From the NCBI GenBank assembly GCA_021773115.1, contig JAJFKS010000006.1, positions 439,266 through 503,265 on the forward strand: a stretch of 64,000 nucleotides of DNA, written 5' to 3'. Under the pieces are notes generated by a model. It was not told where the DNA came from and did no database searches. It was given only the letters and a program-made list of their open reading frames with translations. Shown here piece by piece: positions 6,967-25,738 of the stretch. The translations under genes and the position numbers were made by a program. Positions within the stretch are counted from its first letter, which is position 1. Each line of letters starts with the position of its first letter. The DNA is from Woeseiaceae bacterium. GTDB taxonomy: Bacteria > Pseudomonadota > Gammaproteobacteria > Steroidobacterales > Woeseiaceae.

Positions 6967-8310
6967 ATGATTCGAACATCAGCTTTTCTTTGCGCATTGA
7001 TTCTTGTCAGCGCCTGCCAGAAAACGGAAGTTGCGGTTAGTGCCGAAAAGATTGACGCCATCGTCCATTGTGGATCCGTGATTGACGGATTGTCCGATAC
7101 GACGCTCGGTGAGACGTACATCGTCATCCGCAAGCAGCGCATCAGCGAAATGCTCACCGGCGACAACCCGGTGATGGCCGACGCTGAGACGATCGACCTC
7201 CGCAGCTACACCTGTCTGCCCGGTCTGATTGACATGCATGTCCATTTCGATGGTCTTCCGGAATATTCAGACGACTACACAATCTTCCTCAGAAAAACGC
7301 CTGACGACTTGCGCCGGCTATCTGAAGAACTTGCGAAGGTCGTGCTCGACTCCGGCTTTACCACGGTGCGACATGTCGGCTCTTACATGGCATGGCTCGA
7401 CAGGGACCTCCGGGATCGCATCAACGCGGGAGACGTCATTGGGCCACGCATCCGGGTAGGCGGACCGTATCTGACGATTCCCCACGGTGGCGGTGATATG
7501 TATATTCCTGGTATCGACGACAGCGAAATTCCAGATTACTACCGCACCGGAGTCGCCCGTGGTGCCGACGAATTCTGCAAGCGCGCGCAGGAAGTTGTCG
7601 ATGGCGGCGCTGACTTCATAAAAATCATCGCGTCCGGCGCAGTTTTCGGTCATGGCAGCGATCCCGGCGCACCTGAAATGACTCGCGAAGAAATCAACGC
7701 CGTTGTCGAAGTCGCCAAAGCAGCAGGCATCAAGGTGACCGCACACGCACACAGCGCGGAATCGATCAAGGACGCGGTATTGGCCGGTGTAAACTCGATC
7801 GAACATGCGTCGCTCGCAGACGATGAGTCGATCGCATTGGCCGCGGAACACGGTGTTGCGTTTACGATGGATGTCTACAACGGCACCTATACCGAAGAAG
7901 TCGGAGTCGCGCATGGTTACGCAGAAGAATTCATGCAGAAAAACACCGATACAACGGAAGCGCAGCGCGTTGCTTTCGAAAAAGCGCTCGCGGCGGGTGT
8001 CACGGTCATGTTCGGCACCGATCTCGGCGTACTTCCGCATGACATGGGTGCGAGACAGTTTGAGGTTATGATCGAACGCGGCATGACGCCGATGCAGGCA
8101 ATCAAATCTGCATCATCGGTTCCTGCCGCTCATATGCAGTTGCAAGCGGATGTCGGTGCGCTTGAGGCCGGTCGCTATGCAGACATCATTGCCGTGCACG
8201 GCAATCCGCTCGAGGATATTTCCTTGCTGCAGCATGTGCAGTTCGTCATGAAAGGCGGCGCCGTCATCAAGATGAACGAGCAAGCCACGGCGGATGCTCA
8301 TACACCGTAA
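6967..8310 (+). CDS. exported amidohydrolase lipoprotein (imidazolonepropionase/prolidase-like)
   Basis: The 447-residue protein begins with a lipoprotein signal ending 'LVSAC' (Cys17). It then has the amidohydrolase metal centre: 'GLIDMHVHFDG' with His91 and His93, 'DFIKIIASGAV' with the conserved Lys, 'VTAHAHS' with further His, and 'MFGTDLGV' with the Asp. It fits the COG1228 imidazolonepropionase-like group, which includes Xaa-Pro or Xaa-Arg dipeptidases, so it probably hydrolyses a peptide-like or cyclic amide bond outside the cytoplasm. AGGAG ends five bases before the ATG. Its last 44 bases overlap the convergent MOSC gene. Two more exported amidohydrolases and a propeller fusion lie at 33-39 kb. 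Confidence 0.85.
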   Translation: MIRTSAFLCALILVSACQKTEVAVSAEKIDAIVHCGSVIDGLSDTTLGETYIVIRKQRISEMLTGDNPVMADAETIDLRSYTCLPGLIDMHVHFDGLPEYSDDYTIFLRKTPDDLRRLSEELAKVVLDSGFTTVRHVGSYMAWLDRDLRDRINAGDVIGPRIRVGGPYLTIPHGGGDMYIPGIDDSEIPDYYRTGVARGADEFCKRAQEVVDGGADFIKIIASGAVFGHGSDPGAPEMTREEINAVVEVAKAAGIKVTAHAHSAESIKDAVLAGVNSIEHASLADDESIALAAEHGVAFTMDVYNGTYTEEVGVAHGYAEEFMQKNTDTTEAQRVAFEKALAAGVTVMFGTDLGVLPHDMGARQFEVMIERGMTPMQAIKSASSVPAAHMQLQADVGALEAGRYADIIAVHGNPLEDISLLQHVQFVMKGGAVIKMNEQATADAHTP

Positions 8311-8848
8311 TCACGACCTCATCGCCAGGCACGATCGTCCCGGGTACCTCAACCACGCCGACAACGCCACGCGTTAGCTTCGCGGCTTTCGGAAAATCGG
8401 TATCGGAAAGCACGACACCGGACCGTGTTTCATACTTGCTCGCCAGCTGCGCACCCTTGTCCCGGCACGGCGGATTGTACTCAGACACCATCAGGACCGC
8501 GCCGGATGGAAACTCGAGGATACTGCCCATCGGCAATCGCGATAGCTCGTCAACCCCCTGCAGGCAGAGATTGGCCCCTACATCGGCTGCAGACAGCGGT
8601 GCAGACAGATCCATTTTCTCGCTGATTTCGGCAAGCTCTTCGACGGACACGGCCGACCATTGTCTTTCATTGCGGCGCAAGCTTCCTTTGGCTTGTTTAT
8701 CGCCGCCAAAGCAGGTCCGCGAAAACGACTGATGCCGGTCGTCGACGACACCATCGAATTCCACGCGAATCGAACTGCGCTCCTCCTTACCATGCTTTTC
8801 GCCAACGCCAACGTAAACAGATTGAACGCTTGCCTTCAGGGTTTTCAT
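8267..8848 (-). CDS. MOSC-domain protein
   Basis: Starting at ATG 8848 it gives 193 residues. The sequence 'GVGEKHGKEERSSIRVEFDGVVDDRHQ' and the later 'ADVGANLCLQGV', 'LPMGSILEFPSGAVLMVSEYNPPCRDKG' and 'RGVVGVVEVPGTIVPGDEV' make up the MOSC fold, including the conserved Cys ('NPPC') used in sulfur or molybdenum-cofactor chemistry. A longer frame to 8947 exists but would run back into the isomerase-like gene and lacks conservation. It is the last gene of the long leftward operon, one base after the isomerase-like gene. Its reaction is unknown; MOSC proteins such as YiiM reduce N-hydroxylated compounds, which would suit an amine pathway, but that is inference. Confidence 0.8.
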   Translation of the reverse strand: MKTLKASVQSVYVGVGEKHGKEERSSIRVEFDGVVDDRHQSFSRTCFGGDKQAKGSLRRNERQWSAVSVEELAEISEKMDLSAPLSAADVGANLCLQGVDELSRLPMGSILEFPSGAVLMVSEYNPPCRDKGAQLASKYETRSGVVLSDTDFPKAAKLTRGVVGVVEVPGTIVPGDEVVITVYEHPPWLARSS

Positions 8849-8849
8849 T

Positions 8850-9695
8850 TCAGTCCTCGCATTCGAGTTCAGACCAGAGCGTACGCACCCAGTCACGAAT
8901 AGCCAGCGACTCCTGCCAGCGGTCTGACAGTTCATTCTGATTTGCATCAGTCATCGCATACGGTGGCGGTCCGAGTTCGCACAGGAATGCCAATGTCGCA
9001 TCGTCATCATTGCGCATTCGCCATTCGTGTATGCCCTCTTTCCACCAGGCTTTGAATATTTCCACCCATTGCTGGTGTTGTGGGAAACCGATCTGAACTT
9101 GTACCTGCTCCCGATTCGCGATGCGACCCTGGAAGCAGTCGGAACGCTTCAGGACAGCGCTGATGTACGCCTGGTCGCGTGCGGATATCGGTGCACGCAT
9201 TTCACGGTCCACGACAAAGTGCGACAGATCCGCGCACAATCGCATTTCAGGAACGAAATCCATTAGCTGCAACGTGAAATACAGGTCGTTCAACAAGCTA
9301 TCGCGATGCGTTTCAAACAACAACGGCATATTCCGGTCGGCTGCTTCGTCAATCCAGCGCCGCACGCCGGCAACTGCGTCTTCGGGCTTGATGGGCATGA
9401 CACCACTGATGACATTGACGACCGAGGAGTCCAGTTCAACTGCAAAGTCGATGATCGGTGCCAGATCGTCCGTGGAATACGGAAACGCATTGACCATGAC
9501 CTTGAGATCGTGCTGAGCGAATAGATGTGCGTATTCGCGACATTGCGGAATCTCTGCCCGCGAAGGATCGATACAGGCACCATCGAAACCGGCCTCAGCG
9601 ATCATTGCAAACGCATCGCTTTTACGTCGCTCCGGCGCATTCGGATTGCGCAGCTCCATGCCCCAAAGTGATTGATAAATCTCAAGTTTCTGCAC
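8850..9695 (-). CDS. xylose-isomerase-like TIM-barrel protein
   Basis: With a GTG start at 9695, preceded by AGAGG, the product has 281 residues and overlaps the acyl-CoA synthetase stop by 14 bases. The protein reads as a sugar phosphate isomerase/epimerase-type barrel (AP_endonuc_2 fold): 'SDAFAMIAEAGFDGACIDPS' (first strand), 'MVNAFPY', 'ADRNMPLLFETHRDSLLND' (metal-ligand Glu/His strand) and 'MRLCADLSHFVVDRE' (Asp/His ligands). Such barrels isomerise or epimerise sugars, but many in catabolic operons act on other polyols or aldols. A substrate cannot be assigned. It lies between the CoA ligase and MOSC genes of the leftward operon. Confidence 0.75.
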   Translation of the reverse strand: MQKLEIYQSLWGMELRNPNAPERRKSDAFAMIAEAGFDGACIDPSRAEIPQCREYAHLFAQHDLKVMVNAFPYSTDDLAPIIDFAVELDSSVVNVISGVMPIKPEDAVAGVRRWIDEAADRNMPLLFETHRDSLLNDLYFTLQLMDFVPEMRLCADLSHFVVDREMRAPISARDQAYISAVLKRSDCFQGRIANREQVQVQIGFPQHQQWVEIFKAWWKEGIHEWRMRNDDDATLAFLCELGPPPYAMTDANQNELSDRWQESLAIRDWVRTLWSELECED

Positions 9696-11790
9696 TGGCC
9701 TCTGTCCTTCGGTCGCGCCCGACAAGCACTGCATCAACGGCCGTCGCCCCGTTAGCACTGACGATTACCGGATTGACATCAAGCTCGGCAATGACGTCGC
9801 GCAGCGCGTCAACCATAATTGAAAACCGTTCGGCGAAATCGCAGAAACGATCAATACTGACAGCAGGTGCACCGCGCAGCCCGTCCAGTAACGGCCGCAA
9901 TTTCAGGCGGTCAATGCAGCGGCGTGCATGCAGCGCGCTGAACGGCGGCAGTGCGAATTGCACGTCGGCGAGTGTCTCCGCAAGTACGCCACCGAAGCCC
10001 ATAATAACGACCGGTCCGAACTGCGGATCGCGCTTGACACCGAGTATCATTTCGACACCGACATCCGCGACCGCTGAAATTAGTACGTCGTCGCCGAGTC
10101 GCTTGCGCATTAGCGAATACATTTGCAACAAAGTTTGTTCGTCGGCGATACCGACAACCACACCGGCCTGATCTGATTTGTGAATCAGCCCGGGTTTCGC
10201 CGTTTTCAATACCAGCGGATAGCCGCAGGCAACGCCAGCCGCGATGACGGATGCGTCGTCATGGGCTTCTACCGGTGATGAGGTCTGCATGCCGAAATCA
10301 GCGAGCAAGTTGAGTGACTCGAACTCACTCAAGGTCGAGCCCCTCCTCAGGCGACCCTGCCAGCGCTTTTCGGCGGCCTTATCCGCGGCCGGTAAATCGA
10401 CCTGTTCGTGCAACAGGAAATCACGATACGCAAACAACGACTGCGCGCCTTTCAGAAACTGACTAATGCCATCAAGGACTGGATAACCCGCGTGAGTGCT
10501 GGTCACGACCGCCTCGTCGTGGCCGGTGCCCTGTCTTGCAGCGACCAGCAGAACCGGCTTCCCGGAGTCGGCGCGCGCCCGTTGCATGTAGGTCAGATAA
10601 CTTGCGTAGATCTTGCCATAGGGTGCGCGGTCATGGATGACAACGCCGAGCGCGGCACCGGCATCCTGCATCATCAGCGTCAGCGCGCGGGTCATCACTT
10701 TCGGGGCCTCCGGCCCACCGCGACTCCAGGCATCCAGTGGGTTGACGGCTGGCAGCTCCGGGTCCAGTAGCTTCCTGAGCTTGGCGACGGTTTCATTGCT
10801 GAGTTGAGTCAGAGGCGCGCCCGTGTCGTGTGCGAGGTCGACCAGTAATTGACGTTCACCGCCGGAATCGTGCAATGACACCAAGCCGCCGGCACCGACA
10901 GGATGCAATTCCGCGAACATGATGAGCATCGTTGCAAGCTCGTCCTGGTCATGGGCGCGCTGTACGCCGTAGCGATCGAACAAGGCTTCGTAAGTCGTAT
11001 CGTCACCGGCCAGCGCGCCGGAATGTGACACGGTGAGGCGTGCGGCCTCGGCAGTTCGACCGACTTTCAGCACAACGACGGGAATACGACGCTGTGCAGC
11101 TTTCTTAAGCGCCGCCTCGAAACCTGCCGGGTTTCGCGCGGTTTCGAGAAACAAACCAATGACTCTTGTTTCGGGCAGGTCGAGGGCGAAGTCCAGGTAC
11201 TCGTCCATCGTCGTACTGAGTTCATTGCCCGCGGATACTGCAAGATTAATTTGCAGGCGCTCTTCGCAATCGATAATGCCGGACATGCCGGATCCCGAAT
11301 GCGTGATTAGCGTGACGTTGCCCGGTGCGGGGTGATCCGCGCTATCGAAGCCACAGGTCCACACGTGGTCCCGGACGTTGTAGTAACCCATACCATTGGC
11401 GCCACAAACAAGCATGCCCGCCCGCCTGATTTTTTCCTGCACACGCTGTTTGAGCGGCGGCTGTGAATCGTCATCGAGTACCAGCGTCGACTGAATAACG
11501 GCAGCGGGGATCCCGGCAGCGATTGCCTCGTCCAGAACGGCTTCAAGTCTTTGATCACTCACTGCAAACACGACCAGCTCGGGCACTTCCGGCAGCGCCG
11601 CCACGGACGCGTGGCAGACCTGGCCTTCGACTGATTCGTAACGCGGATTGACCGGATAGACACGGCCCTTGTAGCCGCCCTTCTGAAGATTTGCCAGTGC
11701 CCAGTAGCCGATTGTGTCCGCGCGTCTGGATGCGCCGACAACAGCGACCGAGGTCGGGCGTAGCAACGGATCAAGCCGGTGTTTTTTCAC
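9682..11790 (-). CDS. ADP-forming acyl-CoA synthetase (acetate-CoA ligase family)
   Basis: The 702-residue protein has the fused alpha-beta layout of ADP-forming acyl-CoA synthetases. A CoA-binding Rossmann domain covers about residues 8-105 ('SVAVVGASRR'). Two succinyl-CoA-ligase-like domains follow (about 155-460) with the phospho-His loop 'VSHSGALAGDD' (His256). A C-terminal ATP-grasp domain runs from about 480 to 690 ('YPLVLKTAKPGLIHKSDQAGVVVGI', 'VIMGFGGVLAETLADVQFALPP'). It should convert a carboxylic acid, ATP and CoA to acyl-CoA, ADP and phosphate, or the reverse. In this operon it could activate the carbon skeleton left after deamination, feeding the acyl-CoA dehydrogenase of the divergent operon. 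It starts 12 bases after the GcvT-like stop. Confidence 0.88.
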   Translation of the reverse strand: MKKHRLDPLLRPTSVAVVGASRRADTIGYWALANLQKGGYKGRVYPVNPRYESVEGQVCHASVAALPEVPELVVFAVSDQRLEAVLDEAIAAGIPAAVIQSTLVLDDDSQPPLKQRVQEKIRRAGMLVCGANGMGYYNVRDHVWTCGFDSADHPAPGNVTLITHSGSGMSGIIDCEERLQINLAVSAGNELSTTMDEYLDFALDLPETRVIGLFLETARNPAGFEAALKKAAQRRIPVVVLKVGRTAEAARLTVSHSGALAGDDTTYEALFDRYGVQRAHDQDELATMLIMFAELHPVGAGGLVSLHDSGGERQLLVDLAHDTGAPLTQLSNETVAKLRKLLDPELPAVNPLDAWSRGGPEAPKVMTRALTLMMQDAGAALGVVIHDRAPYGKIYASYLTYMQRARADSGKPVLLVAARQGTGHDEAVVTSTHAGYPVLDGISQFLKGAQSLFAYRDFLLHEQVDLPAADKAAEKRWQGRLRRGSTLSEFESLNLLADFGMQTSSPVEAHDDASVIAAGVACGYPLVLKTAKPGLIHKSDQAGVVVGIADEQTLLQMYSLMRKRLGDDVLISAVADVGVEMILGVKRDPQFGPVVIMGFGGVLAETLADVQFALPPFSALHARRCIDRLKLRPLLDGLRGAPAVSIDRFCDFAERFSIMVDALRDVIAELDVNPVIVSANGATAVDAVLVGRDRRTEASAET

Positions 11791-11802: not shown

Positions 11803-13002
11803 CTAGTAGGGTCCTGGCGGCGTCGCGCCGCGGCGTGGCGGGAACCAGAACGGCTTGTCGACAACCCTCGCCTTCGCCATATGCCGGTTCCAGTGCATCT
11901 CACGTTGATAATAGACCTCTACCCAAAGAGTATCACCGGGCTTGCCTCGCGGTGCGCGGACCGTGCCCAGGGCAATGTTTTGTTTGCAGACCGGCGACCA
12001 TGCCGCCGATGTGACAAAACCAATGGCGGCCTTGTTCGACTTCTCCTGTCCGAATATATAGGAACTGTGCGCGACCTTGTTGCCTTCGATATCCAGCTTT
12101 ACCAGTTGCCAGGTTGAGCCATGGCGCTTTTCTTCGGCGAGTGCGCGACGTCCGTTGAAATTGGGTTTCTTGAAATCGACCAGCCATTCCAGCCCGAGCT
12201 CGAGTGGAGAGCGGGACCGACCCGTGCGCACGGTCTCGTCCGCCGGCAGGAATTCCATGTACGCGGCGAGAAATCCCGCTTCGATTCGCGACAATTCCAG
12301 CGCCGTCGTGCCGATGGCGCGAATGCCGTGTAATTTTCCGGCCTCAAATAATGCATCCCAAAGCGCCTCGGCTTTCGCCGGTTCGATCCACAGTTCATAG
12401 CCCAGATCACCGGTGAAGCCAGTGCGTGAAATCATCAGCTCACGGCCCTGGAAGTCGAAATGCTTAAGGCCGAACGGCTTGAGGTCGGCAAGGCCTTCAA
12501 ATCCCATGTTGTTCAAAGTGCTGAACGACGTCGGTCCCTGCACGGCCAGCGCCGCAACGTCGCCTGTCTCGTGTGTGATCGTGACGTCGAATCCGATCGC
12601 CGCCGCCTGCAACCAGGCAAAGTGGCGTTCCTGCGAACACAGGCGATACTCACCTTCGCGGATATGAAAGATGGTGCCATCGTCAATCACCTGGCCCTGA
12701 TCGTCGCACCAGACCGCATAGGCCACACGTCCGGGTTTGATTTTTGCCATGTCGCGCGTAACAAGCCGGTTCAGGTAGTCGAGTGAATCGGGCCCGGTGA
12801 TCCGGTATTTCGTCATCGGCGTCAGATCGAAGACCGCTGTCGCATTGCGAATGGCGAAGTATTCGGTGTCCGAGCAGTACAGGGAATCCGCGCTGGAATA
12901 GCCTTTCCACTGGTGCCATTCGTTAACAAAATCGAGTTTTTCGAGACGTGAATAAAACGGTGTCTTGAGTCGTCCCTGGTGAACGGGGGCCTGATTACTC
13001 AT
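11803..13002 (-). CDS. GcvT-like aminomethyltransferase / folate-dependent demethylase
   Basis: The ATG at 13002 overlaps the upstream flavoprotein stop as ATGA and gives 399 residues; an upstream extension to 13092 is arginine-rich and not conserved. The protein follows the T-protein fold: 'ATAVFDLTPMTKYRITGPDSLDYLNRL' (about 54-80), 'VWCDDQGQVIDDGTIFHI' with the folate-site Asp pair (Asp107/Asp108), 'RTGFTGDLGYELWI', and a C-terminal barrel 'AAIGFVTSAAWSPVCKQNIALG'. Members move a methyl or methylene group from an amine or sulfonium to tetrahydrofolate (GcvT, dimethylglycine and sarcosine oxidase C-domains, DmdA). Its place after two amine-oxidase-like flavoproteins suggests it captures one-carbon units from an N-methylated substrate. 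Which one is unknown. Confidence 0.87.
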   Translation of the reverse strand: MSNQAPVHQGRLKTPFYSRLEKLDFVNEWHQWKGYSSADSLYCSDTEYFAIRNATAVFDLTPMTKYRITGPDSLDYLNRLVTRDMAKIKPGRVAYAVWCDDQGQVIDDGTIFHIREGEYRLCSQERHFAWLQAAAIGFDVTITHETGDVAALAVQGPTSFSTLNNMGFEGLADLKPFGLKHFDFQGRELMISRTGFTGDLGYELWIEPAKAEALWDALFEAGKLHGIRAIGTTALELSRIEAGFLAAYMEFLPADETVRTGRSRSPLELGLEWLVDFKKPNFNGRRALAEEKRHGSTWQLVKLDIEGNKVAHSSYIFGQEKSNKAAIGFVTSAAWSPVCKQNIALGTVRAPRGKPGDTLWVEVYYQREMHWNRHMAKARVVDKPFWFPPRRGATPPGPY

Positions 13003-14549
13003 GCTGCTTTCTCCCGGCTCAGGATGGTTCTCGCGGCATTGCGACCCGCCGCGCCGCTGACACCACCACCTGGGTGGGTTCCTGCGCCACACAAATACAG
13101 TCCTTCCAGCGGCATACTGTACTGCGCGGCACTGCTAACCGGCCGCACGAACATGAACTGGTCGAGCGTCAACTCAGCGTGATGCCAGTGGCCGCCGCTA
13201 ATATGAAACTCTCGCTCGATATCGACGGGCGTCAGTAGCTCACTTGCCGTAACTCGGCCGCCAATGTCCGGCGCATATTCTGCGATGGTTTCGATGACGA
13301 CTTTTTCGAATGCCGCTTTGGCTTCGTCTGTCCAACCACCGTTCAGATCGTAGGGCGCATACTGGACCACAGCAGACATCACATGCTTGCCGGTTGGTGC
13401 CATCGTTTCGTCGCGGCAACTTGGAAAGGTCATTTCGATGACCGGTTTCGGTGAACTCTCACCGTATTTCGCCGGGTTGAAGGCGCGCTCAACATAGTTT
13501 GCACTCGGCGCTATGACGAGCCGCTCAACGAAGTCCTTTTTAGATAAGCCTGCAAAGTTCGGCAGTCCGTCCAGCGCCAGGTGCAGTTTCGCCGCATTGC
13601 CCTTCGCCCGCAGGTGATGGATTCGGCGCGTGAAACCAGTCTCGACATGCTTGACGCCAATCAGGTCCATGATGGTGCGCTTTGGATCGGCGTTGGAAAT
13701 TACCGTGAAGCTGTCGAAGCGATCGCCAAATTCTGTTTCAACACCCGCTACTCGACCGTTCTCCACGATGATGCGCTTGACCGGTATGCCGGTGCGTATC
13801 GTCGCGCCTTCACTGCGAGCAACATGCGCCAGCTCGTTGCTAACGCTTCCCATGCCGCCAGCCGGGATACCGCACTGACCATGATCTCCCGCCTGCCGGT
13901 ACAGGTAAGTCATGATCGTATTCGGCGATCGCGGACCCAGGTGTGTGCCGAGCACCGCATCAAGGCTGATTGCGCCACGCAGCAATGGATGCTCAAAGCG
14001 TTCCGTTAATTCATCATAGATATTCATACCGATGAGTCGCAGGAATTCGCGCATTTCGTCTTTGCCGAGCATGCGCAGGTCGAGGCCAAGCTGTCCGAGC
14101 GTAACCAGGTCCTTGAGGTCCTTGCTACCAAGACGCGGCGGCGGCTTGTTGAAAAATTTTCGCAACAGATCCGAGAATCGGGACATACGTTTGCGAAACT
14201 CCCGATAATGCGCGGCGTCTTCCCTGTTCACGCCCTCTACCTGTTTATTGTCCAGGCGCAGGTGTTTGCCGCCTTCACCCAATGCAATAGTGGTTAACTC
14301 CGAACTGGCCATGCGCGGTGTCAGTTTCAGTTCTTTGCGAACGGCTGGTTGCAACTGGTAGAGCAGGTGGGCACACGCAGAAACCGAGTAGCCGTCGGCA
14401 AACTCGCGGGTAATCGCAGCGCCGCCGACCTGCTCATTGGCCTCGAGAACCAGGACCCGTTTTCCTGCCCTGGCAAGCAAGGCGGAACACACCAGGCCGT
14501 TGTGGCCGGCGCCAACAATAATCGCGTCGTATTGATCAGTCATCGCCAA
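12999..14549 (-). CDS. PYROXD2-like FAD oxidoreductase (COG1233), copy 2
   Basis: This 516-residue protein has 'DAIIVGAGHNGLVCSALLARAG' (FAD motif at 13-19), 'EANEQVGGAAITREFADGYSVSACAHLLYQL', a central 'GQCGIPAGGMGSVSNELAHVARSEGA', and the C-terminal FAD motif 'GLYLCGAGTHPGGGVSGAAGRNAARTIL'. This is the phytoene-desaturase-like COG1233 group, closest in motif style to PYROXD2. It is a diverged paralogue of the gene just upstream and overlaps that gene's stop by 14 bases. No carotenoid genes are nearby, so carotenoid synthesis is unlikely; an amine or enamine oxidation is more plausible here. Copy pairs may form a heterodimer. The reaction is unknown. Confidence 0.85.
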   Translation of the reverse strand: MAMTDQYDAIIVGAGHNGLVCSALLARAGKRVLVLEANEQVGGAAITREFADGYSVSACAHLLYQLQPAVRKELKLTPRMASSELTTIALGEGGKHLRLDNKQVEGVNREDAAHYREFRKRMSRFSDLLRKFFNKPPPRLGSKDLKDLVTLGQLGLDLRMLGKDEMREFLRLIGMNIYDELTERFEHPLLRGAISLDAVLGTHLGPRSPNTIMTYLYRQAGDHGQCGIPAGGMGSVSNELAHVARSEGATIRTGIPVKRIIVENGRVAGVETEFGDRFDSFTVISNADPKRTIMDLIGVKHVETGFTRRIHHLRAKGNAAKLHLALDGLPNFAGLSKKDFVERLVIAPSANYVERAFNPAKYGESSPKPVIEMTFPSCRDETMAPTGKHVMSAVVQYAPYDLNGGWTDEAKAAFEKVVIETIAEYAPDIGGRVTASELLTPVDIEREFHISGGHWHHAELTLDQFMFVRPVSSAAQYSMPLEGLYLCGAGTHPGGGVSGAAGRNAARTILSREKAA

Positions 14550-17531: not shown

Positions 17532-17551
17532 ATGAATGAGTATTCATTCAT
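17532..17551. promoter_or_regulatory. 20-bp perfect palindrome, probable operator of the BetI-like repressor
   Basis: ATGAATGA, spacer GTAT, then TCATTCAT: two perfect 8-base arms. It sits in the roughly 70-base spacer between the aminotransferase ATG (17501) and the divergent BetI-like ATG (17571), where a TetR-type repressor that controls both operons would bind. TATTAT at 17551-17556 may be a -10 element for the rightward operon. That this site is bound by the neighbouring regulator is inference from position and symmetry. Confidence 0.7.
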
Positions 17552-17570: not shown

Positions 17571-18209
17571 ATGGCGACCACAGCAAAAAACAGCAAACGA
17601 ACCGCGACGCGAGCCACGCGACGGCAACAACTCATTGATTCCACAGTGAAATGTATCGCCCGCAAGGGTCTCGGCAGCACCACGACCGGCGACGTCGCCC
17701 GCGAAGCCGGCCTCTCCCAGGGCATCATCAACCTGCATTTCAAGAGCAAGAACAACCTGCTCAATGAAACGCTTCGCTACCTCGCAGACGAATACAAAAC
17801 CCAGTTCACGCTTGCTATAGAGCGGTCCGGGCCGTTGGCTTCCGACAAACTGCGTGCGCTCATGGCACTCGACCTCAGACCGTCGATCTGTGACCGCAAC
17901 AAGATCGCTGTCTGGTTCGCATTCTGGGGCGAGGTAAAGTCACGCCCGAGGTACCGGGAAATTTGCGAGAAATACGATGAATACTATGACGAGGTTACGC
18001 GCAGCCTTTGCGATGAAATTATTGCGGAAGGCGGCTATCCCGGCGTCAGCGGTACCGCGGTCGCAACTGTACTGACATCGTTGACGAACGGCCTGTGGCT
18101 TGCCTGCCTCGTAAACGAGAAGACATTCGACCGTAAACAGGCAATGAACTGCATCGACGAATACTTAAACTGCATTTTTCCAAAACACTTTCCTGTGAGA
18201 ATCCTTTGA
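17571..18209 (+). CDS. BetI-like TetR-family transcriptional regulator
   Basis: The ATG at 17571 gives 212 residues. The N-terminal helix-turn-helix (about 17-62) reads 'TRRQQLIDSTVKCIARKGLGSTTTGDVAREAGLSQGIINLHFKSKNNLL', very close in style to BetI, the choline-responsive TetR repressor. The 'IAVWFAFWGEVKSRPRYREIC' segment of the ligand domain is also a BetI-group hallmark. It should repress both operons from the palindrome at 17532-17551 and release it on binding an amine or quaternary-ammonium ligand. The choline genes betA/betB are absent here, so the inducer is probably another compound. It is the first gene of the rightward operon and overlaps the acyl-CoA dehydrogenase start (TTGA). 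Confidence 0.87.
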   Translation: MATTAKNSKRTATRATRRQQLIDSTVKCIARKGLGSTTTGDVAREAGLSQGIINLHFKSKNNLLNETLRYLADEYKTQFTLAIERSGPLASDKLRALMALDLRPSICDRNKIAVWFAFWGEVKSRPRYREICEKYDEYYDEVTRSLCDEIIAEGGYPGVSGTAVATVLTSLTNGLWLACLVNEKTFDRKQAMNCIDEYLNCIFPKHFPVRIL

Positions 18210-19366: not shown

Positions 19367-20478
19367 CTGGGAAGTCTCTGTATCACCTTGGCGTATGTGT
19401 TGCCGCACTACTGCTTGCCTCGTGCAGCCGATCAAGCGAACAACAGGCTAACGACGCCAATATCGTCAACGTGTACAACTGGGCGGACTATATCGCGCCC
19501 GACACCATCCGGAAATTTGAGGCCGAAACCGGCATTAAGGTCAACTACGACCTGTATGACTCCTCCGAAGTTGTCGACGTCAAACTGCTGGCTGGTCGCA
19601 GCGGCTACGACGTCGTCGTTCATAGCAACCAGTTTTCGTCGCGCCTCGCACCGATTGGTATATTCCAGAAGCTCGACATGAGCAAGTTCAAAAATTACGC
19701 CAACCTGGATACAGAGTTGATGCAGCGCGTCGGCGTATACGAGGCTGTCGTCGACTACAGCATTCCGTATCACTGGGGCACGACCGGCTACGCCTGGAAC
19801 GTTGAGATGGTTCGCGAACGGCTGCCGCAGCACACAATGGATAGCGGCGATATCCTGTTCGATCCCGAGGTCGTTTCGAAGCTGGCCGACTGCGGAGTCA
19901 GTCTGCTGGACGGCCCAACGGACCTGTTTCCGATGGTGCTGGCCTACCTGGGGCTCGATCCCACAGCCGCCGATGACGAAAGTCTGGCCGCTGCAGAAGC
20001 GCAGTTGAACAAAGTGCGGCCGTATATTCGCTACTTCAGTAATTCCAAAATGTTGTCGGACCTTCCCAATCGCGAAGTCTGTGTCGCGATGAGCTGGTCC
20101 GGTGACTACGCCACAGCGGCCGCACGCGCCGATGAAGCCGGGCTCGATATTGAACTCCGATATACGGCGCCCAAAGAAGGTTCGGGGCTATGGGTCGACG
20201 GTCTCTATATCCCTGCCGATGCACCGCATACGGACAATGCCTACAGGTTCATCGACTTTTTGCTGCGAGCCGATATCGCTGCCGACATCGCTGACTTCGT
20301 CAACTATGCGAACGCCAATCGCGCCTCTTGGCCGTTGATGAATCCTCTCAATTACAATGACGACGCGATCTTCCCGAGCGAAGAAACATGGCAACGCCTG
20401 TACCCGATCATGTCCGCGGACCCGAAGCAGGAACGCGTCAGGACGCGGGCTTTTGCGCGAGTTAAGAGCGGCCTGTGA
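19363..20478 (+). CDS. PotF-like periplasmic di/polyamine-binding lipoprotein
   Basis: The 371-residue product has a lipobox LLASC (Cys21) and then aligns closely with PotF over its full length: 'VNVYNWADYIAPDTIRKFEAETGIKVNYDLYDSSEV', 'CGVSLLDGPTDLFPMVLAYLG', 'IRYFSNSKMLSDLPNREVCVAMSWSGDYA', 'FVNYANANRASWPLMNP', and the end 'RVRTRAFARVKSGL'. From memory, most putrescine-contacting positions of PotF are kept or conservative (Trp and Tyr of NWxDY, the Ser of VVxxS, Trp/Asp of SWSGD, Asp of WVDG), while PotF Ser38 is Ala and Glu185 is Asp. A diamine or related cation is therefore likely. PotF itself is soluble; the lipobox is a difference. The GTG at 19363 overlaps the dehydrogenase stop. Confidence 0.9.
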   Translation: MTGKSLYHLGVCVAALLLASCSRSSEQQANDANIVNVYNWADYIAPDTIRKFEAETGIKVNYDLYDSSEVVDVKLLAGRSGYDVVVHSNQFSSRLAPIGIFQKLDMSKFKNYANLDTELMQRVGVYEAVVDYSIPYHWGTTGYAWNVEMVRERLPQHTMDSGDILFDPEVVSKLADCGVSLLDGPTDLFPMVLAYLGLDPTAADDESLAAAEAQLNKVRPYIRYFSNSKMLSDLPNREVCVAMSWSGDYATAAARADEAGLDIELRYTAPKEGSGLWVDGLYIPADAPHTDNAYRFIDFLLRADIAADIADFVNYANANRASWPLMNPLNYNDDAIFPSEETWQRLYPIMSADPKQERVRTRAFARVKSGL

Positions 20479-21566
20479 ACGAATTCATTCGCATAAAAGG
20501 CGTTAGCAAATTGTTCGGTGACTTCGTTGCGGTTGACAATGTCAGCCTCGATATCGCGAAGGGCGAACTGTTCTCAATTCTCGGCGGATCCGGTTGTGGC
20601 AAGACGACGCTGCTGCGAATGCTTGCCGGCTTCGAAGTGCCGTCTTCCGGGGCAATTGAGATCGACGGCGTTGACGTCACCCACCAGGCGCCCTACGACC
20701 GACCCGTGAACATGATGTTTCAATCCTACGCATTATTTCCGCATATGAACGTCGCAACAAACATTGGCTACGGTCTGCGCAAGGAAGGTACGGCGAAACC
20801 TGAAATCGCACGACGTGTCGACGAAATGCTGGAACTGGTCCAGCTCAGCGACTTCAAGAACCGCAAACCAGACCAACTGTCCGGCGGGCAACGTCAACGC
20901 GTCGCACTGGCACGCGCACTGATTAAACGACCCAAGGTTTTATTGCTTGACGAACCTCTGGCCGCACTGGACAAGAAACTTCGTGAGCGAACGCAATTTG
21001 AACTGATGAACATTCAGCATGAACTCGGTATCACCTTCGTCGTTGTAACCCACGACCAGGAAGAAGCCATGACACTTTCGAGTCGTATCGTCGTCATGAA
21101 CAAGGGTAAGTTTGAGCAAATCGGAACGCCCAAGGAAATCTACGAGTTTCCAGTTAATCGCTTCGTTGCGGACTTTATCGGCACGATTAACACGTTTGAG
21201 GGCATTGTCACTGTTGTCAACGACGATTCCATTGAGGTTTATAGCGATCAGATTGGGGAGACCTTGTCGGCGCTGGGCCGGCAGCTCGTTGAAGTCGGAC
21301 AACAGGTGCAAATAGCAGTGCGGCCCGAAAAGATTTTCCTTAGCCGGGACAAACCGGACAATGATGAAGATATTTGTATCGAGGGTGTTGTCGATGACCT
21401 CGGCTATCTCGGCAACCGATCGCTTTACCGAGTTCGGGTAAAGTCCGGGAGAATTGTCCAGGTTAGTTCGCAGAACCGGCGCCGCTCTGTGACGCGCTTT
21501 CTTGAATGGGACGATAAGGTCTGGATTTCGTGGCGGCCGCGCAGTGCCGTTGTGTTGCTGGACTGA
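20475..21566 (+). CDS. polyamine-type ABC importer ATPase (PotG/PotA-like)
   Basis: This 363-residue ATPase has Walker A 'GGSGCGKTT' (37-45), Q-loop 'MMFQSYALFPH' (80-90), signature LSGGQ (135-139), Walker B 'VLLLDE' (155-160) and the switch His in 'VVVTHDQEEAM'. The C-terminal part after about residue 240 is the TOBE regulatory domain ('VAVRPEKIF'-like segment, 'VDDLGYLGNRSLYRV'), as in PotG, MalK and other CUT/polyamine importers. It energises the two permeases encoded next. The GTG start at 20475 overlaps the binding-protein stop by four bases, and the whole operon is tightly coupled. Confidence 0.93.
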   Translation: MNEFIRIKGVSKLFGDFVAVDNVSLDIAKGELFSILGGSGCGKTTLLRMLAGFEVPSSGAIEIDGVDVTHQAPYDRPVNMMFQSYALFPHMNVATNIGYGLRKEGTAKPEIARRVDEMLELVQLSDFKNRKPDQLSGGQRQRVALARALIKRPKVLLLDEPLAALDKKLRERTQFELMNIQHELGITFVVVTHDQEEAMTLSSRIVVMNKGKFEQIGTPKEIYEFPVNRFVADFIGTINTFEGIVTVVNDDSIEVYSDQIGETLSALGRQLVEVGQQVQIAVRPEKIFLSRDKPDNDEDICIEGVVDDLGYLGNRSLYRVRVKSGRIVQVSSQNRRRSVTRFLEWDDKVWISWRPRSAVVLLD

Positions 21567-21571
21567 TAGCG

Positions 21572-22468
21572 ATGCGTGTCGCAACGAATATGCGCGACCA
21601 GATGTGGCGACACATTGCGCTCGCAACGCCCTATCTCTGGCTGCTGATTTTCTTTCTCGCGCCGTTTGCGATCGTCCTCAAGATCAGCCTGGCCGATCCC
21701 GTCATCGCCCAACCGCCTTTTACACCAAGCTTTGATGACCAGGGCCGGCTCGCGACCTCCGTCGACAGTTTTCGCTTTCTGCTGACCGACAAGTTGTACG
21801 TGATTACCTACTATCGATCGCTTGTGATGGCGGCGGCGGCGACGGCCTTGTGTCTGGTTCTCGGGTTTCCGATGGCTTACGGCATTGCGCGTTCGCGCCC
21901 GGCAATTCGGAGCCTGTTGCTGTTGTTGATCGTTCTGCCGTTCTGGATTTCGTTTCTGCTGCGCGTATACGCGTGGATGGGCCTGATGAATAACTACGGT
22001 GTCATCAACAATTTCCTGATGTGGCTCGGGGTCATCGACACGCCGATTCAAATTATGTATACGGATTTCGCAGTTTTCGTGGGCCTTGCTTACTCGTATT
22101 TGCCGTTCATGATCCTGCCGCTCTATGCGACGCTGCAACGTATGGATATGAGTCTCGTTGAGGCAGCACAGGATCTCGGTGCGTCGCGTACGCGAGCATT
22201 TTGGGACGTAACCTGGCCATTGGCGAAACCCGGCATCGTTGCCGGCTGCCTGTTGGTCTTCATTCCGGCTATTGGCGAATACGTTATCCCTTACCTGCTG
22301 GGCGGCCCGGAATCACTATTGATTGGCCGCGTGTTATTTGACGAGTTTTTTGTGAACCGCGACTGGCCGCTGGCATCGGCCGTCGCTATCGTGCTGCTGG
22401 TCCTGCTGGTCATCCCGATCGTCTTGTTGCAACGCTACCAGGCGCGTGATCAGGAGAGCACGGCATGA
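21572..22468 (+). CDS. polyamine-type ABC importer permease (PotH/PotB-like)
   Basis: From the ATG at 21572, five bases after the ATPase stop, this gives 298 residues with six predicted membrane helices (first at about residues 17-36). The cytoplasmic EAA coupling loop is clear: 'VEAAQDLGASRTRAFWDVTWPLAKPG'. The segment 'LPFWISFLLRVYAWMGLMNNYGVINNFL' is characteristic of PotB/PotH. An in-frame upstream start inside the ATPase gene is unnecessary. It forms the translocation pore with the next gene product in the inner membrane. Confidence 0.92.
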   Translation: MRVATNMRDQMWRHIALATPYLWLLIFFLAPFAIVLKISLADPVIAQPPFTPSFDDQGRLATSVDSFRFLLTDKLYVITYYRSLVMAAAATALCLVLGFPMAYGIARSRPAIRSLLLLLIVLPFWISFLLRVYAWMGLMNNYGVINNFLMWLGVIDTPIQIMYTDFAVFVGLAYSYLPFMILPLYATLQRMDMSLVEAAQDLGASRTRAFWDVTWPLAKPGIVAGCLLVFIPAIGEYVIPYLLGGPESLLIGRVLFDEFFVNRDWPLASAVAIVLLVLLVIPIVLLQRYQARDQESTA

Positions 22469-23271
22469 ACAGGCAGTCGCGCTTCGTTATTTCTGTCATG
22501 TCCTTTGGCTATGCCTTCCTGTACGTGCCTCTGGTCCTGGTGGTCGTGTATTCGTTTAACGATTCGAGAATCGCAACAGTCTGGGGCGGCTTTTCAACAC
22601 GCTGGTATGGAGAGTTACTGCAGAATGATCAGATCCTTGACGCCGCATTATTGAGCCTGATGATCGCAGTGACCTCGGCCACAGCTGCGACTATTCTCGG
22701 CACAATGGGTGGTCTGGTGCTTGCCCGCTTTGGGCGCTTCAAGGGCCGATCATTGTTTGCGGGAATGATTTCATCACCGATGGTCATGCCGGAGGTCATC
22801 ACAGGCCTGTCACTGCTGCTGTTGTTTGTAAGCTTGCAACAGCTGACCGGTTGGCCCGATCAGCGTGGCTTCTCAACAATTGCCATTGCTCATACGACAT
22901 TTTCAATGGCATACGTCGCTGTCATCGTGCAGTCGCGATTGATTGCGATGGATGAGTCGCTTGAGGAAGCCGCAATGGACCTTGGCGGGCGACCGCTGCG
23001 TGTCGTCTTCGATATCACGCTGCCGCTGATCGCGCCGGCCATGATCGCGGGCTGGCTGCTGTCATTTACACTGTCGCTCGACGACCTGGTCATCGCCAGT
23101 TTCGTCTCCGGCCCAGGCAGCACGACTTTGCCAATGGTCATCTTTTCAAAGGTCAAGCTGGGCGTGTCGCCGGACATAAACGCGCTGGCGACGATCATTA
23201 TCGTGACGGTAAGCATCGGTGTTGCAATTGCGTGGATGGTCGGTCGGCGAGTCGCCAGACCGCTTAACTGA
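22465..23271 (+). CDS. polyamine-type ABC importer permease (PotI/PotC-like)
   Basis: The 268-residue protein has six membrane segments and the EAA loop 'LEEAAMDLGGRPLRVVFDITLPLIAPA'. The N-terminal 'LYVPLVLVVVYSFNDSRIATVWGGFSTRWYGELL' and the 'SLDDLVIASFVSGPGSTTLPMVIFSKVKLGVSPDINALATI' stretch are classic PotC/PotI features. Its ATG overlaps the preceding permease stop (ATGA). It is the last gene of the rightward operon and its stop is one base from the stop of the convergent Rieske gene, so both operons must end in very little space; no separate terminator is seen. Confidence 0.92.
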   Translation: MNRQSRFVISVMSFGYAFLYVPLVLVVVYSFNDSRIATVWGGFSTRWYGELLQNDQILDAALLSLMIAVTSATAATILGTMGGLVLARFGRFKGRSLFAGMISSPMVMPEVITGLSLLLLFVSLQQLTGWPDQRGFSTIAIAHTTFSMAYVAVIVQSRLIAMDESLEEAAMDLGGRPLRVVFDITLPLIAPAMIAGWLLSFTLSLDDLVIASFVSGPGSTTLPMVIFSKVKLGVSPDINALATIIIVTVSIGVAIAWMVGRRVARPLN

Positions 23272-23272: not shown

Positions 23273-24493
23273 TCAGGGGCGCTGCAACTCCTGCAGTATC
23301 CACTCGGTGTATCGCTGCTCCATCCGCTCCATGCCCGAGAATGGTCCCGGCTCATAGTACTTTGAATGCACGCCACGTGAATTATTGCTGACGATTTCCT
23401 TGTCGGCTTTGGTGGTGACATCCCACAACCAGGTCAGCGCTTCGACATCGTAATCCCTGCCCTCTTCCGCGTCGCCTCGTACCAGCCAGTAAATTTCACA
23501 GCTGGAATTATTCTGGTCAATCGGCGTGAACACGTAGCAAACGACATGATCGTTGTAGGCCAACACGAACGAGAATGGTCCGAATGACAGGTCTGCCTGA
23601 CCACTGTCATAGCCCGTGATGTTTCCGAGCAACGGCGCGACTGGTTCACCACCTTTGCTGCCGGTCTTGTATTTGCTGAACATCGCTGTTCGACCGAAGC
23701 CGAAGCCGATTTCTCCGGGTCGAGCTTCCGTGTCGATATGATCAATGAAAATATCCTTGATGCCGCAAGCTTCCATGCGCTCGTACATATGGCCCGATAC
23801 CCGCTCGCGCTTCTCTCGATCGAGCATCAAGGTATGCATCAGGGCGTATTCGGGATGCGCCGTCGCACAGTGATAACACTCCTGGTAGTTTTCGATGGCT
23901 AACTTCCAGTTAGCGGGAATTGGATAGCTTTTCTGTGCCGCGACTTTCAGGTTAGTGAAATCGTACATGCCCATAGCTTCTTCGAGATCGCGAATTGCCC
24001 CATCAATCGACGGCGGATCATCGCTAAAGCAGACAAACACGAGGCCGTGAATGATGCCGACAGAAACTTTCTTCAGCCCATGACTGGACTTGTCGAAGTC
24101 GTCCGCCATATTGCGCGCGGCAATAAGATTGCCATCGATGTCGTACATCCAGCCATGATAGGGACAGGTAAATTTATCGGCGTGACCCGCAGACTGCAGG
24201 CAAACGAGCGAACCCCGATGACGACACACGTTGGCAAAACCCCGCAGCTCGCCGCCCTCGCTGCGAACCACGATTGCCGATTCCTGGGCGACGTTGAGCA
24301 CCCGGAAGTCGCCCGGCTGTGGCCATTGCGACGTATGTCCGGCAAGAATCCAGTTTCGATTAATGATTTTTTCGACCTCGAGTTTGTAAATCTCGGGGTC
24401 CGTATAAAATGCCTGTTCAAGCGAATAGCCGGGTTTCCGATTCGCGATCAAATCGCCGATCGATCGCCGATCCTGGTTCAGAAATGTACTCAT
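23273..24493 (-). CDS. Rieske non-heme iron oxygenase, quaternary-amine demethylase type
   Basis: From the ATG at 24493 the protein has 406 residues, the right size for an oxygenase alpha subunit; a further 67-residue upstream extension is not conserved. The Rieske cluster ligands are Cys90-x-His92 and Cys110-x2-His113. The mononuclear iron site is 'ENYQECYHCATAHPE' with His208 and His213, and the third ligand is probably Asp363. The bridging residue is Glu205 instead of the Asp of ring-hydroxylating dioxygenases, a trait I recall for CntA, GbcA and related betaine or carnitine oxygenases. It likely demethylates or cleaves a quaternary ammonium compound. No reductase subunit gene is adjacent. 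Confidence 0.87.
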   Translation of the reverse strand: MSTFLNQDRRSIGDLIANRKPGYSLEQAFYTDPEIYKLEVEKIINRNWILAGHTSQWPQPGDFRVLNVAQESAIVVRSEGGELRGFANVCRHRGSLVCLQSAGHADKFTCPYHGWMYDIDGNLIAARNMADDFDKSSHGLKKVSVGIIHGLVFVCFSDDPPSIDGAIRDLEEAMGMYDFTNLKVAAQKSYPIPANWKLAIENYQECYHCATAHPEYALMHTLMLDREKRERVSGHMYERMEACGIKDIFIDHIDTEARPGEIGFGFGRTAMFSKYKTGSKGGEPVAPLLGNITGYDSGQADLSFGPFSFVLAYNDHVVCYVFTPIDQNNSSCEIYWLVRGDAEEGRDYDVEALTWLWDVTTKADKEIVSNNSRGVHSKYYEPGPFSGMERMEQRYTEWILQELQRP

Positions 24494-24577
24494 TGTTATT
24501 CCACAATATGAAACACAAGCGGTGAGAGTTGTTACGATATCACAACGCTTTAATGCGGCAGATAGGTGCTTAACGAA
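24494..24577. promoter_or_regulatory. divergent promoter spacer with inverted repeat
   Basis: This 84-base spacer separates the Rieske and decarboxylase starts. It contains the inverted repeat GTTGT-N9-ACAAC at 24528-24546, which could be an operator shared by both genes. It does not resemble the palindrome at 17532-17551, so a different regulator, if any, would act here. No convincing -35/-10 pair could be fixed by eye. Confidence 0.3.
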
Positions 24578-25738
24578 ATGTCGAGACATTCGCTTCCGAG
24601 CTATGAGAACGTGGTGGAATTGTTGCAAAAAACAAATCCCAGTCGACCTGTCTACTGCATCTACCCCCACATCTATCATCAAACTGCGGAACATTTTTTA
24701 AGCGGTTTTCCCGGGCGGGTCCTGTTTGCCGTTAAAGCGAATAACCATCCCGAAATTCTAAGGCTGCTGTTCGCCGCCGGTGTACGACATTTCGACTGTG
24801 CATCACTGCAGGAAATCAAGCTCGTTCATGCAGTTTGTCCTGGCGCTACTGCTTACTTTATGAACCCGGTTCGCTTTCCGGACGATGCGCGTGTGGCACA
24901 AAATACCTACGGCGTTCGACACTTCCTGATCGACCATCACAGCGGCCTTGCACCGTTGCTGAAAGAAATCGACGTCAAATCGACGGTCATATTTGCTCGC
25001 ATGGCAGTTTCACATGCATCGGCCCAAGCAGACCTGTCCGCAAAATTTGGCGCCAGACCGGACAATATGCCTGCCCTGCTGAATGCAATCGCAGATTCCG
25101 GCGCCGAAGCGGCGCTTGCATTCAATGTCGGATCTGGCGTGGTGGATCCCGAGGCCTATGCCTATGGGATCGGCGTGGCACGCGACGTGCTCGACAAAAT
25201 TGCGTTCCGGATTCGCCTGCTGGATATCGGCGGCGGCTTTCCAAAACCCTACCCTGGCCTCAACGTGCCGCCACTCGAAGATTTCTTTTTAAGAACTCAG
25301 CATGCTGCCAAACAATTGGCACTGGCGGCGAATGGCGAATTGCTGTGCGAACCCGGACGCGCACTGAGCGCGCCCGGGCTGTCCGCTGTTACTACTGTTC
25401 TGCTGCGAAAATCCGACCGCCTGTATCTCAACGATGGCATGTACGGAATTTTCTGGGAGCTGCGCTTTAAGTGGCACTTGCAATTTGCCAGCCGGGTATT
25501 TCGAAACGGCCAGCAGTTGGCGGGCGAAACCAAAGCATTCAGAGTCCTTGGGCCAACCTGCGACTCGACTGACGAGCTTCCGATTCGAATTGAGCTGCCG
25601 GCGGATTGTGATGTTGGCGACCATATCGAATTTGGTTCGATCGGCGCATACAGCCTCAGCGGCCGAACTGACTTCAACGGTTTCTACAGCGATACCGTTG
25701 TCTCCCTGCTTGATCCGAACGCTGCCCCGCCAGCCTGA
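24578..25738 (+). CDS. fold-III PLP-dependent decarboxylase (ornithine/diaminopimelate decarboxylase family)
   Basis: From ATG 24578 (GTG 24566 is an alternative) the product has 386 residues. It follows the alanine-racemase-fold decarboxylases: 'LFAVKANNHPEIL' with the PLP Lys53, 'LLDIGGGFP' (218-220 glycine loop), 'CEPGRAL' (258-261), 'GPTCDSTD' with the second-subunit Cys328/Asp329, and 'GAYSL' with Tyr358. These suit ornithine or lysine decarboxylation to a diamine. An oddity is 'AFNVGSG': the His of the family motif FHVGSG, which stacks on PLP, is Asn183 here. That may mean a changed substrate or reaction. It is divergent from the Rieske gene by 84 bases. Confidence 0.82.
   Translation: MSRHSLPSYENVVELLQKTNPSRPVYCIYPHIYHQTAEHFLSGFPGRVLFAVKANNHPEILRLLFAAGVRHFDCASLQEIKLVHAVCPGATAYFMNPVRFPDDARVAQNTYGVRHFLIDHHSGLAPLLKEIDVKSTVIFARMAVSHASAQADLSAKFGARPDNMPALLNAIADSGAEAALAFNVGSGVVDPEAYAYGIGVARDVLDKIAFRIRLLDIGGGFPKPYPGLNVPPLEDFFLRTQHAAKQLALAANGELLCEPGRALSAPGLSAVTTVLLRKSDRLYLNDGMYGIFWELRFKWHLQFASRVFRNGQQLAGETKAFRVLGPTCDSTDELPIRIELPADCDVGDHIEFGSIGAYSLSGRTDFNGFYSDTVVSLLDPNAAPPA

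Follow-up and report, generated by a model that had tools for sequence, protein, structure and literature searches.

We analysed a 64,000-nucleotide stretch of the genome of a Woeseiaceae bacterium (assembly GCA_021773115.1, contig JAJFKS010000006.1, positions 439,266–503,265), hereafter the window, which carries a module of divergent operons around a BetI-like TetR regulator gene. The minus-strand run encodes a class III aminotransferase, two PYROXD2-like flavoproteins (PYR2 and PYR1), a GcvT-like protein, an ADP-forming acyl-CoA synthetase, a TIM-barrel protein and a MOSC protein, and the plus-strand run encodes the regulator, an acyl-CoA dehydrogenase and the importer subunits PotF, PotG, PotH and PotI; a Rieske oxygenase gene (minus strand) lies convergent with PotI, and a fold-III decarboxylase gene (plus strand) is divergent from it. 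We propose, with a probability of about 0.55, that this module serves the regulated uptake and catabolism of a diamine or polyamine that is N-methylated and probably quaternary. Its core, formed by the Rieske oxygenase, the flavoprotein pair and the GcvT-like protein, is best read as an oxidative N-demethylation cassette, a reading that we hold at about two in three, and we are less sure that an N-methylated diamine is the substrate here. The module and its core are genuine, as the comparison with relatives shows.

Gene order is conserved around a constant core

The first-pass annotation, made from this DNA alone, had named gene order across genomes as a check on the module. Using PYR1 as the bait, we compared the best 80 of 157 confirmed relatives (loci with handles beginning with L); nearly all are metagenome-assembled, they are mutually related and many lie on short contigs. 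The nearest relatives of the window are metagenome-assembled Gammaproteobacteria, many of them Woeseiaceae. Gene order proved to be conserved across the 80 loci. PYR2 adjoins PYR1 on the same strand in 78, the remaining two ending at a contig edge, and the order is PYR2–PYR1 in 74 and reversed in four. The GcvT-like gene adjoins the flavoproteins in 79 loci and lies at a contig edge in the other. The remaining genes are found less regularly: an aminotransferase of this type in 53 loci, the Rieske gene (scored as a tblastn match to the window protein) in 49, the BetI-like gene in 47, PotG in 40, the acyl-CoA synthetase in 37, PotF and PotH in 34 each, the acyl-CoA dehydrogenase in 33 and PotI in 32. 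The TIM-barrel, MOSC and decarboxylase genes, which had been counted as module members, occur in just 14, 10 and 1 of the 80 loci, and we therefore regard them as peripheral; the flanks limit the decarboxylase count, and 4 of 15 longer stretches of same-genus genomes also carry this gene. Among the 31 loci with full flanks, i.e. at least 21,400 bases, 29 have the Rieske gene (L083 and L111 do not), 25 have any aminotransferase, 19 have at least two Pot genes and 18 have all three.

The association extends beyond these relatives. Of 36 further genomes in the genus, 28 have a PYR1 match at 57% identity or more. In a phylum-wide draw of 398 genomes including that of the window, 10 of the 397 others have a PYR2 match at E ≤ 1e-130; within 20 kb around PYR2, PYR1 and GcvT adjoin it in all 10, and these limited stretches also contain the aminotransferase in eight, several Pot genes in seven and the Rieske gene in four. 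Five alphaproteobacterial plasmids, from Rhizobium, Fuscovulum, Parasedimentitalea, Shinella and Ensifer (the last an unannotated record, with gene content taken from tblastn), bring together a TetR gene, PYR2–PYR1–GcvT, an aminotransferase, one or more Rieske genes and ABC genes of the polyamine type. On these plasmids PYR2 is the better conserved flavoprotein, at 59–66% identity to the window compared with 38–45% for PYR1.

In the stretches fetched, four loci (L067, L068, L126 and L132) show a contiguous Rieske–PYR2–PYR1–GcvT run and have neither an aminotransferase nor a linked Pot importer; for L132, the contig ends ~3 kb upstream. The four-gene core of L067 is bordered by the flanks of the window module, with MauG/YtkA on one side and an amidohydrolase plus a homocysteine methyltransferase on the other. 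The module therefore appears to have expanded or contracted at one chromosomal site around a constant core.

The flavoprotein pair

In a tree of 77 flavoproteins, the 38 PYR1 proteins were split from the rest with a support of 100/100, and 35 of the 37 rows labelled PYR2 formed one clade, also at 100/100; the other two, L110 and L111, are long-branch rows that group with two single-copy proteins. Since the PYR1 clade is separate from PYR2, the two proteins are probably two subunits. Alignments and models used the window PYR1 and PYR2 without their first residue, and the AlphaFold models have a mean pLDDT of 85.3 (PYR1) and 81.4 (PYR2). Their fold matches begin with carotene desaturase, followed by Rab-GDI and amine oxidases (nicotine oxidoreductase, putrescine oxidase and MAO). 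We take both to belong to the PYROXD2 family; among at least 8000 candidate PYR2 homologues scored, the names seen for the best 120 are generic. The idea that the pair consists of carotenoid desaturases or ketolases amid unrelated neighbours can be largely dismissed, as CrtO, despite being the best NCBIfam model, scores 250.6 and 272.4 bits against a cut-off of 1000, no phytoene/squalene synthase (SQS_PSY) was found in the window genome (99.56% complete; 7 of 14 control genomes were positive), and GcvT is linked in nearly every locus.

Two further arrangements of these genes were seen. A second type of triad, in some cases in PYR1–PYR2 order, occurs in L100, L104, L111, L112, L113, L170 and L171, near a DAO-type oxidase gene, in some with an AraC-type regulator, and sometimes sharing a contig with another triad. 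On a Shinella sumterensis plasmid (L119:8026–17164), a single PYR gene and GcvT stand alongside genes for an enoyl-CoA hydratase, an acetate-CoA-ligase-type synthetase, a carnitine-dehydrogenase-like protein and a 3-keto-5-aminohexanoate-cleavage-type protein.

The GcvT-like protein and the Rieske oxygenase

The best solved relatives of the GcvT-like protein are the trimethylamine N-oxide (TMAO) demethylase 9q59/9q5a (E 1.4e-44) and, nearly equal, the aminomethyltransferase 1yx2 (4.2e-44). It scores below the cut-offs for the GcvT of glycine cleavage (221.5 versus 300 and 169.7 versus 235.85 bits) and has the features of the GcvT fold, namely the GCV_T domain and conserved DD and SRTG..GD.GYE motifs, which we take to reflect a folate role.

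For the Rieske oxygenase, the nearest solved chains are 4qup, 3vca and 3n0q (E ~1e-72 to 1e-71), with carnitine monooxygenase at 1e-38; 4qup and 3vca are presumably both Stc2. The CxH, CxxH and H/H/D positions are kept in at least 95% of 48 aligned rows. We assume that the two histidines and the aspartate form the iron site and that, together with CxH/CxxH, they mark the Rieske N-demethylase group of Stc2 and GbcA, into which the protein fits as judged by these motifs. All eight Rieske relatives tested have GbcA as their top NCBIfam model, none of them reaching its cut-off of 670, and five match it over the full length (264–318 bits); the window protein scores 313.5. Two GbcA-like Rieske genes were found in the window genome, one in the module, ~7 kb from PYR2, and the other divergent from a third PYR homologue (L167:9207–11923, where the two matches end 27 bases apart).

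In 14 loci, the BetI-like regulator lies inside one open frame of 466–840 codons (L079:3397–5661, L082, L087, L090, L091, L094, L095, L097, L098, L099, L103, L106, L107 and L109). The L079 frame, the only one of the 14 scanned with Pfam, holds TetR_C_6 followed by Rieske and Ring_hydroxyl_A. The CxH histidine appears to be replaced in 13 of the 14, and the motif was not found in L107. A loose iron-site pattern matched none of the 14 frames, and all 15 neighbouring separate Rieske genes keep CRHRG and the iron-site motif, the two patterns used being different. The long frame is perhaps a dead oxygenase turned sensor.

Importer and substrate-binding pocket

The first-pass annotation of a polyamine-type importer held up, with all PotFGHI subunits present. 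Aligned with E. coli PotF, the PotF homologue keeps W37, D39, W244, D247 and D278 and has changes at S38 (A), F276 (W), E185 (D) and S87 (Q); the D39 and D247 equivalents are present in all 26 aligned PotF rows, window included. Its score of 350.2 bits is below the PotF equivalog cut-off of 636. The roles of the pocket residues are those given in passages of PMC8666671, where F276W combined with far-end changes shifts PotF towards spermidine. We read the pocket as one with a retained primary-amine site and an altered far end, as judged by residue identities. Used as a probe on the five plasmids, PotF matched a substrate-binding gene on that of Fuscovulum alone (E 1e-15). Those of Rhizobium, Parasedimentitalea and Shinella carry a substrate-binding gene that is annotated but of another kind, and none was found with this probe on that of Ensifer.

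Regulator and probable operator

The description of the regulator as BetI-like is right as a similarity, since the protein has the TetR_C_6 and TetR_N domains of the BetI-type TetR group, but it does not extend to a true BetI, as the two BetI models score 99.0 and 99.7 bits against cut-offs of 201.3 and 118. Local control by this gene is well in keeping with the dedicated palindrome beside it, TGAATGAN4TCATTCA (TGAATGAGTATTCATTCA, 17533–17550), in the divergent promoter. This is the sole window match at up to two mismatches, against 0.22 expected by chance, and 19 of 100 shuffled sequences contained one or more. Genome-wide, there is one perfect copy and one other site with one mismatch, and the reversed-pattern control gave none. 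The palindrome is perfect in all 27 loci whose BetI homologue has at least 46% identity and in none of the 20 at 36% or below, these identity classes having been chosen after the data were seen. Eight of 10 rhizobial-type loci (L114, L117, L118, L149, L150, L151, L152 and L154, with none in L147 and L148) carry a two-mismatch version between the aminotransferase and PotH. This pattern supports a local repressor, whose DNA binding and ligand are predictions.

Neighbouring genes in relatives

PurU lies near the core in four of the 80 loci (L101, L105, L108 and L110), and the L108 protein is above the PurU cut-off. A carnitine 3-dehydrogenase gene is near the core in five, a glutamine-synthetase-fold gene in 10, and a DAO-type oxidase gene, with L-pipecolate oxidase as the best model (201, below the cut-off of 600), in eight. 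An aldehyde dehydrogenase neighbours the core in 13 loci; six of these proteins have at least 76% identity to that of L099, which is above the cut-off for the aminobutyraldehyde dehydrogenase subfamily, and the rest have 29–39%. Together, PurU, carnitine dehydrogenase and aldehyde dehydrogenase point to one-carbon (C1)-folate and betaine or polyamine chemistry. As for the aminotransferase, guanitoxin-type chemistry was rejected: GntE falls below its cut-off (Table 1) and is the sole guanitoxin model among the best 25 NCBIfam rows per protein.

Proposed function and alternatives

In the route that we favour, PotFGHI would take up a molecule with two unlike ends, one a free primary amine and the other a bulky cationic group. 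The Rieske oxygenase would take one methyl off the quaternary nitrogen as formaldehyde, the PYR1–PYR2 pair would then oxidise the N-methyl groups left, and the GcvT-like protein would pass the carbon to tetrahydrofolate. In dimethylglycine oxidase and sarcosine oxidase, fused domains oxidise the N-methyl group and pass the carbon to tetrahydrofolate. The aminotransferase would turn the primary amine into an aldehyde; an enzyme encoded outside the cluster would oxidise this, after which the acyl-CoA synthetase would activate the product and the acyl-CoA dehydrogenase would desaturate it. The BetI-like repressor would occupy the single palindrome between both operons. The earlier proposal that an N-methylated amine feeds C1-folate gains from the GcvT linkage (79 of the 80 loci), the PurU neighbours (four) and the Rieske homologues (49). 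As a guess, the substrate could be trimethylputrescine, which is attractive because its transamination and oxidation would yield gamma-butyrobetaine, the compound that feeds into the carnitine genes of L153 and of the soil-type loci. Breakdown of diatom long-chain N-methylated polyamines is a speculation for which a search of the open-licence PubMed Central literature gave no paper, and homarine catabolism, the first idea considered, was set aside, as none of the papers that searches of that literature listed describes a matching gene set in its title or abstract opening.

Several observations weigh against the N-methylated-amine module. The position of PotF E185 is D in the window and S or N in some relatives, and on four of the five plasmids the PotF probe detects no substrate-binding gene. 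Importer and aminotransferase are absent from many loci (PotF is found in 34 and an aminotransferase of this type in 53 of the 80), though many contigs are short. The Rieske relatives of three soil-type loci match GbcA over the N-terminal half alone (148–172 bits). For neither flavoprotein did the searches made return a characterised close relative, the best solved structures being carotenoid desaturases, and the putative link to human PYROXD2 is by name, from the first-pass annotation, and by family. The window genome has no PurU match above the cut-off (best 116.2 versus 285.95 bits; 8 of 14 control genomes were positive). The earlier claim of a complete route was too strong, as neither a Rieske reductase nor an aldehyde dehydrogenase was seen in the window cluster, and the synthetase and the acyl-CoA dehydrogenase are present in fewer than half of the loci; aldehyde dehydrogenases are encoded elsewhere in the window genome, the best of them 37% identical to that of L099. 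PotFGHI and the aminotransferase would be explained equally well if the module simply used unmethylated polyamines.

Catabolism of the gamma-butyrobetaine/carnitine type is the foremost of the alternatives, albeit an unlikely one. Here the substrate would be a betaine acid or one of its precursors, a trimethylammonio-aldehyde or amine, degraded via acyl-CoA intermediates, with the demethylases acting on glycine betaine or GABA-type end products. The five carnitine 3-dehydrogenase loci (L075, L078, L096, L106 and L109) speak for it: four of them also have a crotonobetainyl-CoA-hydratase-like gene (292.5, below the cut-off of 500) and an acyl-CoA dehydrogenase, and three have a synthetase. So do L153, from a genome of another class, with a carnitine 3-dehydrogenase at 753.6 versus a cut-off of 592 and a hydratase at 290.1, and the lone PYR–GcvT pair within a similar cluster in L119. 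However, the window cluster has neither the carnitine dehydrogenase nor the hydratase, the acyl-CoA genes in the carnitine-type loci share only 26–36% identity with their window counterparts, and the two-ended cation pocket kept by PotF is presumably unlike what a betaine acid would need.

Ordinary putrescine or spermidine catabolism, in which the two flavoproteins would act as a polyamine oxidase and GcvT would be a passenger, is a somewhat poorer candidate still. It would account for the PotFGHI importer, for the putrescine oxidase and MAO among the fold matches, and for the class III aminotransferases that in some relatives fall under NF005447, a model that we take to resemble the putrescine enzyme SpuC. 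The aminobutyraldehyde-dehydrogenase-type gene of relatives and their glutamine-synthetase-fold gene, which scores best with the gamma-glutamylputrescine synthetase model (205.9, below the cut-off of 650), would also fit. Yet unmethylated polyamines give no C1 unit, whereas 79 of the 80 loci have GcvT, four have PurU and 49 have a Rieske homologue.

Comparison with known systems

The Rieske oxygenase of the module is in the same group as Stc2, the stachydrine (proline betaine) demethylase, in whose pathway N-demethylation of the betaine is followed by a flavoprotein step; no proline enzymes are among the scanned module genes, and the PYR1–PYR2–GcvT set replaces that flavoprotein. Glycine betaine is catabolised by GbcAB, DgcAB, SoxBDAG and PurU, and the likeness lies in a Rieske enzyme followed by flavin-dependent N-demethylation with folate, and in PurU near the core in four relatives. 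In contrast, the module Rieske protein scores below the GbcA cut-off, the flavoproteins are CrtI-like and the importer is of the polyamine type. Dimethylglycine oxidase, heterotetrameric sarcosine oxidase and TMAO demethylase, all of which match the GcvT-like protein, join a GcvT-type folate domain to a partner that oxidises or demethylates N-methyl groups, whereas in the module GcvT is a separate protein whose likely partners are two CrtI-fold flavoproteins. The importer has the same subunits and main binding residues as PotFGHI and SpuDE-type systems, but PotF differs from them at the four pocket positions given above. Carnitine/gamma-butyrobetaine degradation shares neighbour genes in some relatives and none in the window cluster.

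Relation to human PYROXD2

Human genetic associations agree with an N-methylamine role of the family, and they are no proof for the bacterial pair. Passages of PMC8109053 report that the missense variant rs2147896 of PYROXD2 explains ~50% of the variance of plasma N6-methyllysine and 48% of that of N6,N6-dimethyllysine, and also tie it to N-methylpipecolate and trimethyllysine. Passages elsewhere map urinary trimethylamine and plasma dimethylamine to the PYROXD2 locus (PMC3169529), with the trimethylamine association appearing again in PMC4564198, and associate N-methylpipecolate with PYROXD2 (PMC5780481). According to passages of PMC13352909, the tie of PYROXD2 to missing N2-acetyl-N6,N6-dimethyllysine was lost once adjusted for diabetes, and part of the PYROXD2 effect is mediated via HPS1; a legend in PMC12028430 groups PYROXD2 with phytoene desaturases. 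Among the papers listed by searches of the open-licence PubMed Central literature, no title or abstract opening was seen to describe a cassette of this kind or a reaction for PYROXD2.

More tentatively, PYR1–PYR2–GcvT may represent an undescribed class of folate-coupled oxidative N-demethylase with two CrtI-fold subunits, acting downstream of a Rieske demethylase and taking N-trimethylated diamines as substrates (for example trimethylputrescine, trimethylcadaverine or methyllysine derivatives), in which case human PYROXD2 would be a methyllysine-type N-methylamine oxidase. If true, this would be a second flavoprotein architecture for biological N-demethylation, would suggest a way for Woeseiaceae and for some rhizobia and relatives of roseobacters to use methylated diamines, and would offer a bacterial system for testing the function of PYROXD2, a human gene whose very strong ties to methyllysines, trimethylamine and dimethylamine await an explanation.

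Gene map and flanking genes

The window assembly comprises 4.41 Mb in 39 contigs. All genes named in the first-pass annotation were recovered at or near their given positions from open reading frames (ORFs), Pfam and NCBIfam (Table 1), and its divergent, tightly coupled operons are borne out by adjacent genes that overlap or lie no more than ~12 bases apart. Being convergent with PotI and divergent from the Rieske gene, respectively, the Rieske and decarboxylase genes are separate units. Judging from the translations, several listed ORF starts look too far 5'; positions 13002 for the GcvT-like, 17571 for the BetI-like, 24493 for the Rieske and 8848 for the MOSC gene are likelier.

Table 1. Features of the module in window coordinates, with scores in bits
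Feature	Position	Strand	Evidence
MOSC-domain protein	8267..8848	minus	Pfam MOSC 44.3 versus cut-off 22.7; likely start 8848, listed ORF to 8947
Xylose-isomerase-like TIM-barrel protein	8850..9758	minus	AP_endonuc_2 30.5, just below cut-off 31.1; true start probably downstream
ADP-forming acyl-CoA synthetase	9682..11790	minus	ATP-grasp_5, Succ_CoA_lig and CoA_binding_2 above cut-offs; no NCBIfam model above cut-off
GcvT-like folate (aminomethyltransferase-type) protein	11803..13002	minus	GCV_T 193.8; likely start 13002
PYR1, CrtI-type (PYROXD2-like) FAD oxidoreductase, probable subunit 1	12999..14549	minus	Pfam, NCBIfam, fold, clade
PYR2, CrtI-type (PYROXD2-like) FAD oxidoreductase, probable subunit 2	14536..16152	minus	Pfam, NCBIfam, fold
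Class III aminotransferase, GntE/HemL-like	16152..17528	minus	Aminotran_3 201.3; GntE 456.6, cut-off 525
Palindrome TGAATGAGTATTCATTCA, probable TetR operator	17533..17550		Divergent promoter
BetI-like TetR regulator	17571..18209	plus	TetR_C_6 and TetR_N above cut-offs; likely start 17571, listed ORF from 17472
Acyl-CoA dehydrogenase	18206..19366	plus	Pfam; no NCBIfam model above cut-off
PotF-type substrate-binding protein	19363..20478	plus	NCBIfam, structure relatives; lipoprotein-like signal read by eye
PotG/PotA-type ATPase	20475..21566	plus	TIGR01187 412.5 versus cut-off 355.6
PotH-type permease	21530..22468	plus	Best NCBIfam model PotH, 379.3, below cut-off 489
PotI-type permease	22465..23271	plus	Best NCBIfam model PotI, 355.8, below cut-off 476
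Rieske oxygenase, closest to Stc2/GbcA group	23273..24493	minus	Pfam, NCBIfam, structure relatives; likely start 24493
Fold-III PLP decarboxylase, lysine/ornithine decarboxylase-like, peripheral	24566..25738	plus	Pfam, structure relatives

On one side, the module is flanked by a MauG-type di-haem gene and a YtkA-like gene (window 25821–28024), which also adjoin core-only versions (L040, L067 and L126). The other flank (window 5982–8310) encodes a homocysteine S-methyltransferase (347.3 bits versus a cut-off of 215) and a Xaa-Pro-dipeptidase-like amidohydrolase (421.3 bits, below the cut-off of 500), and the clusters of these two proteins are present in 10 and 15 of the 80 loci, respectively. 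Woeseiaceae are common in marine sediments.

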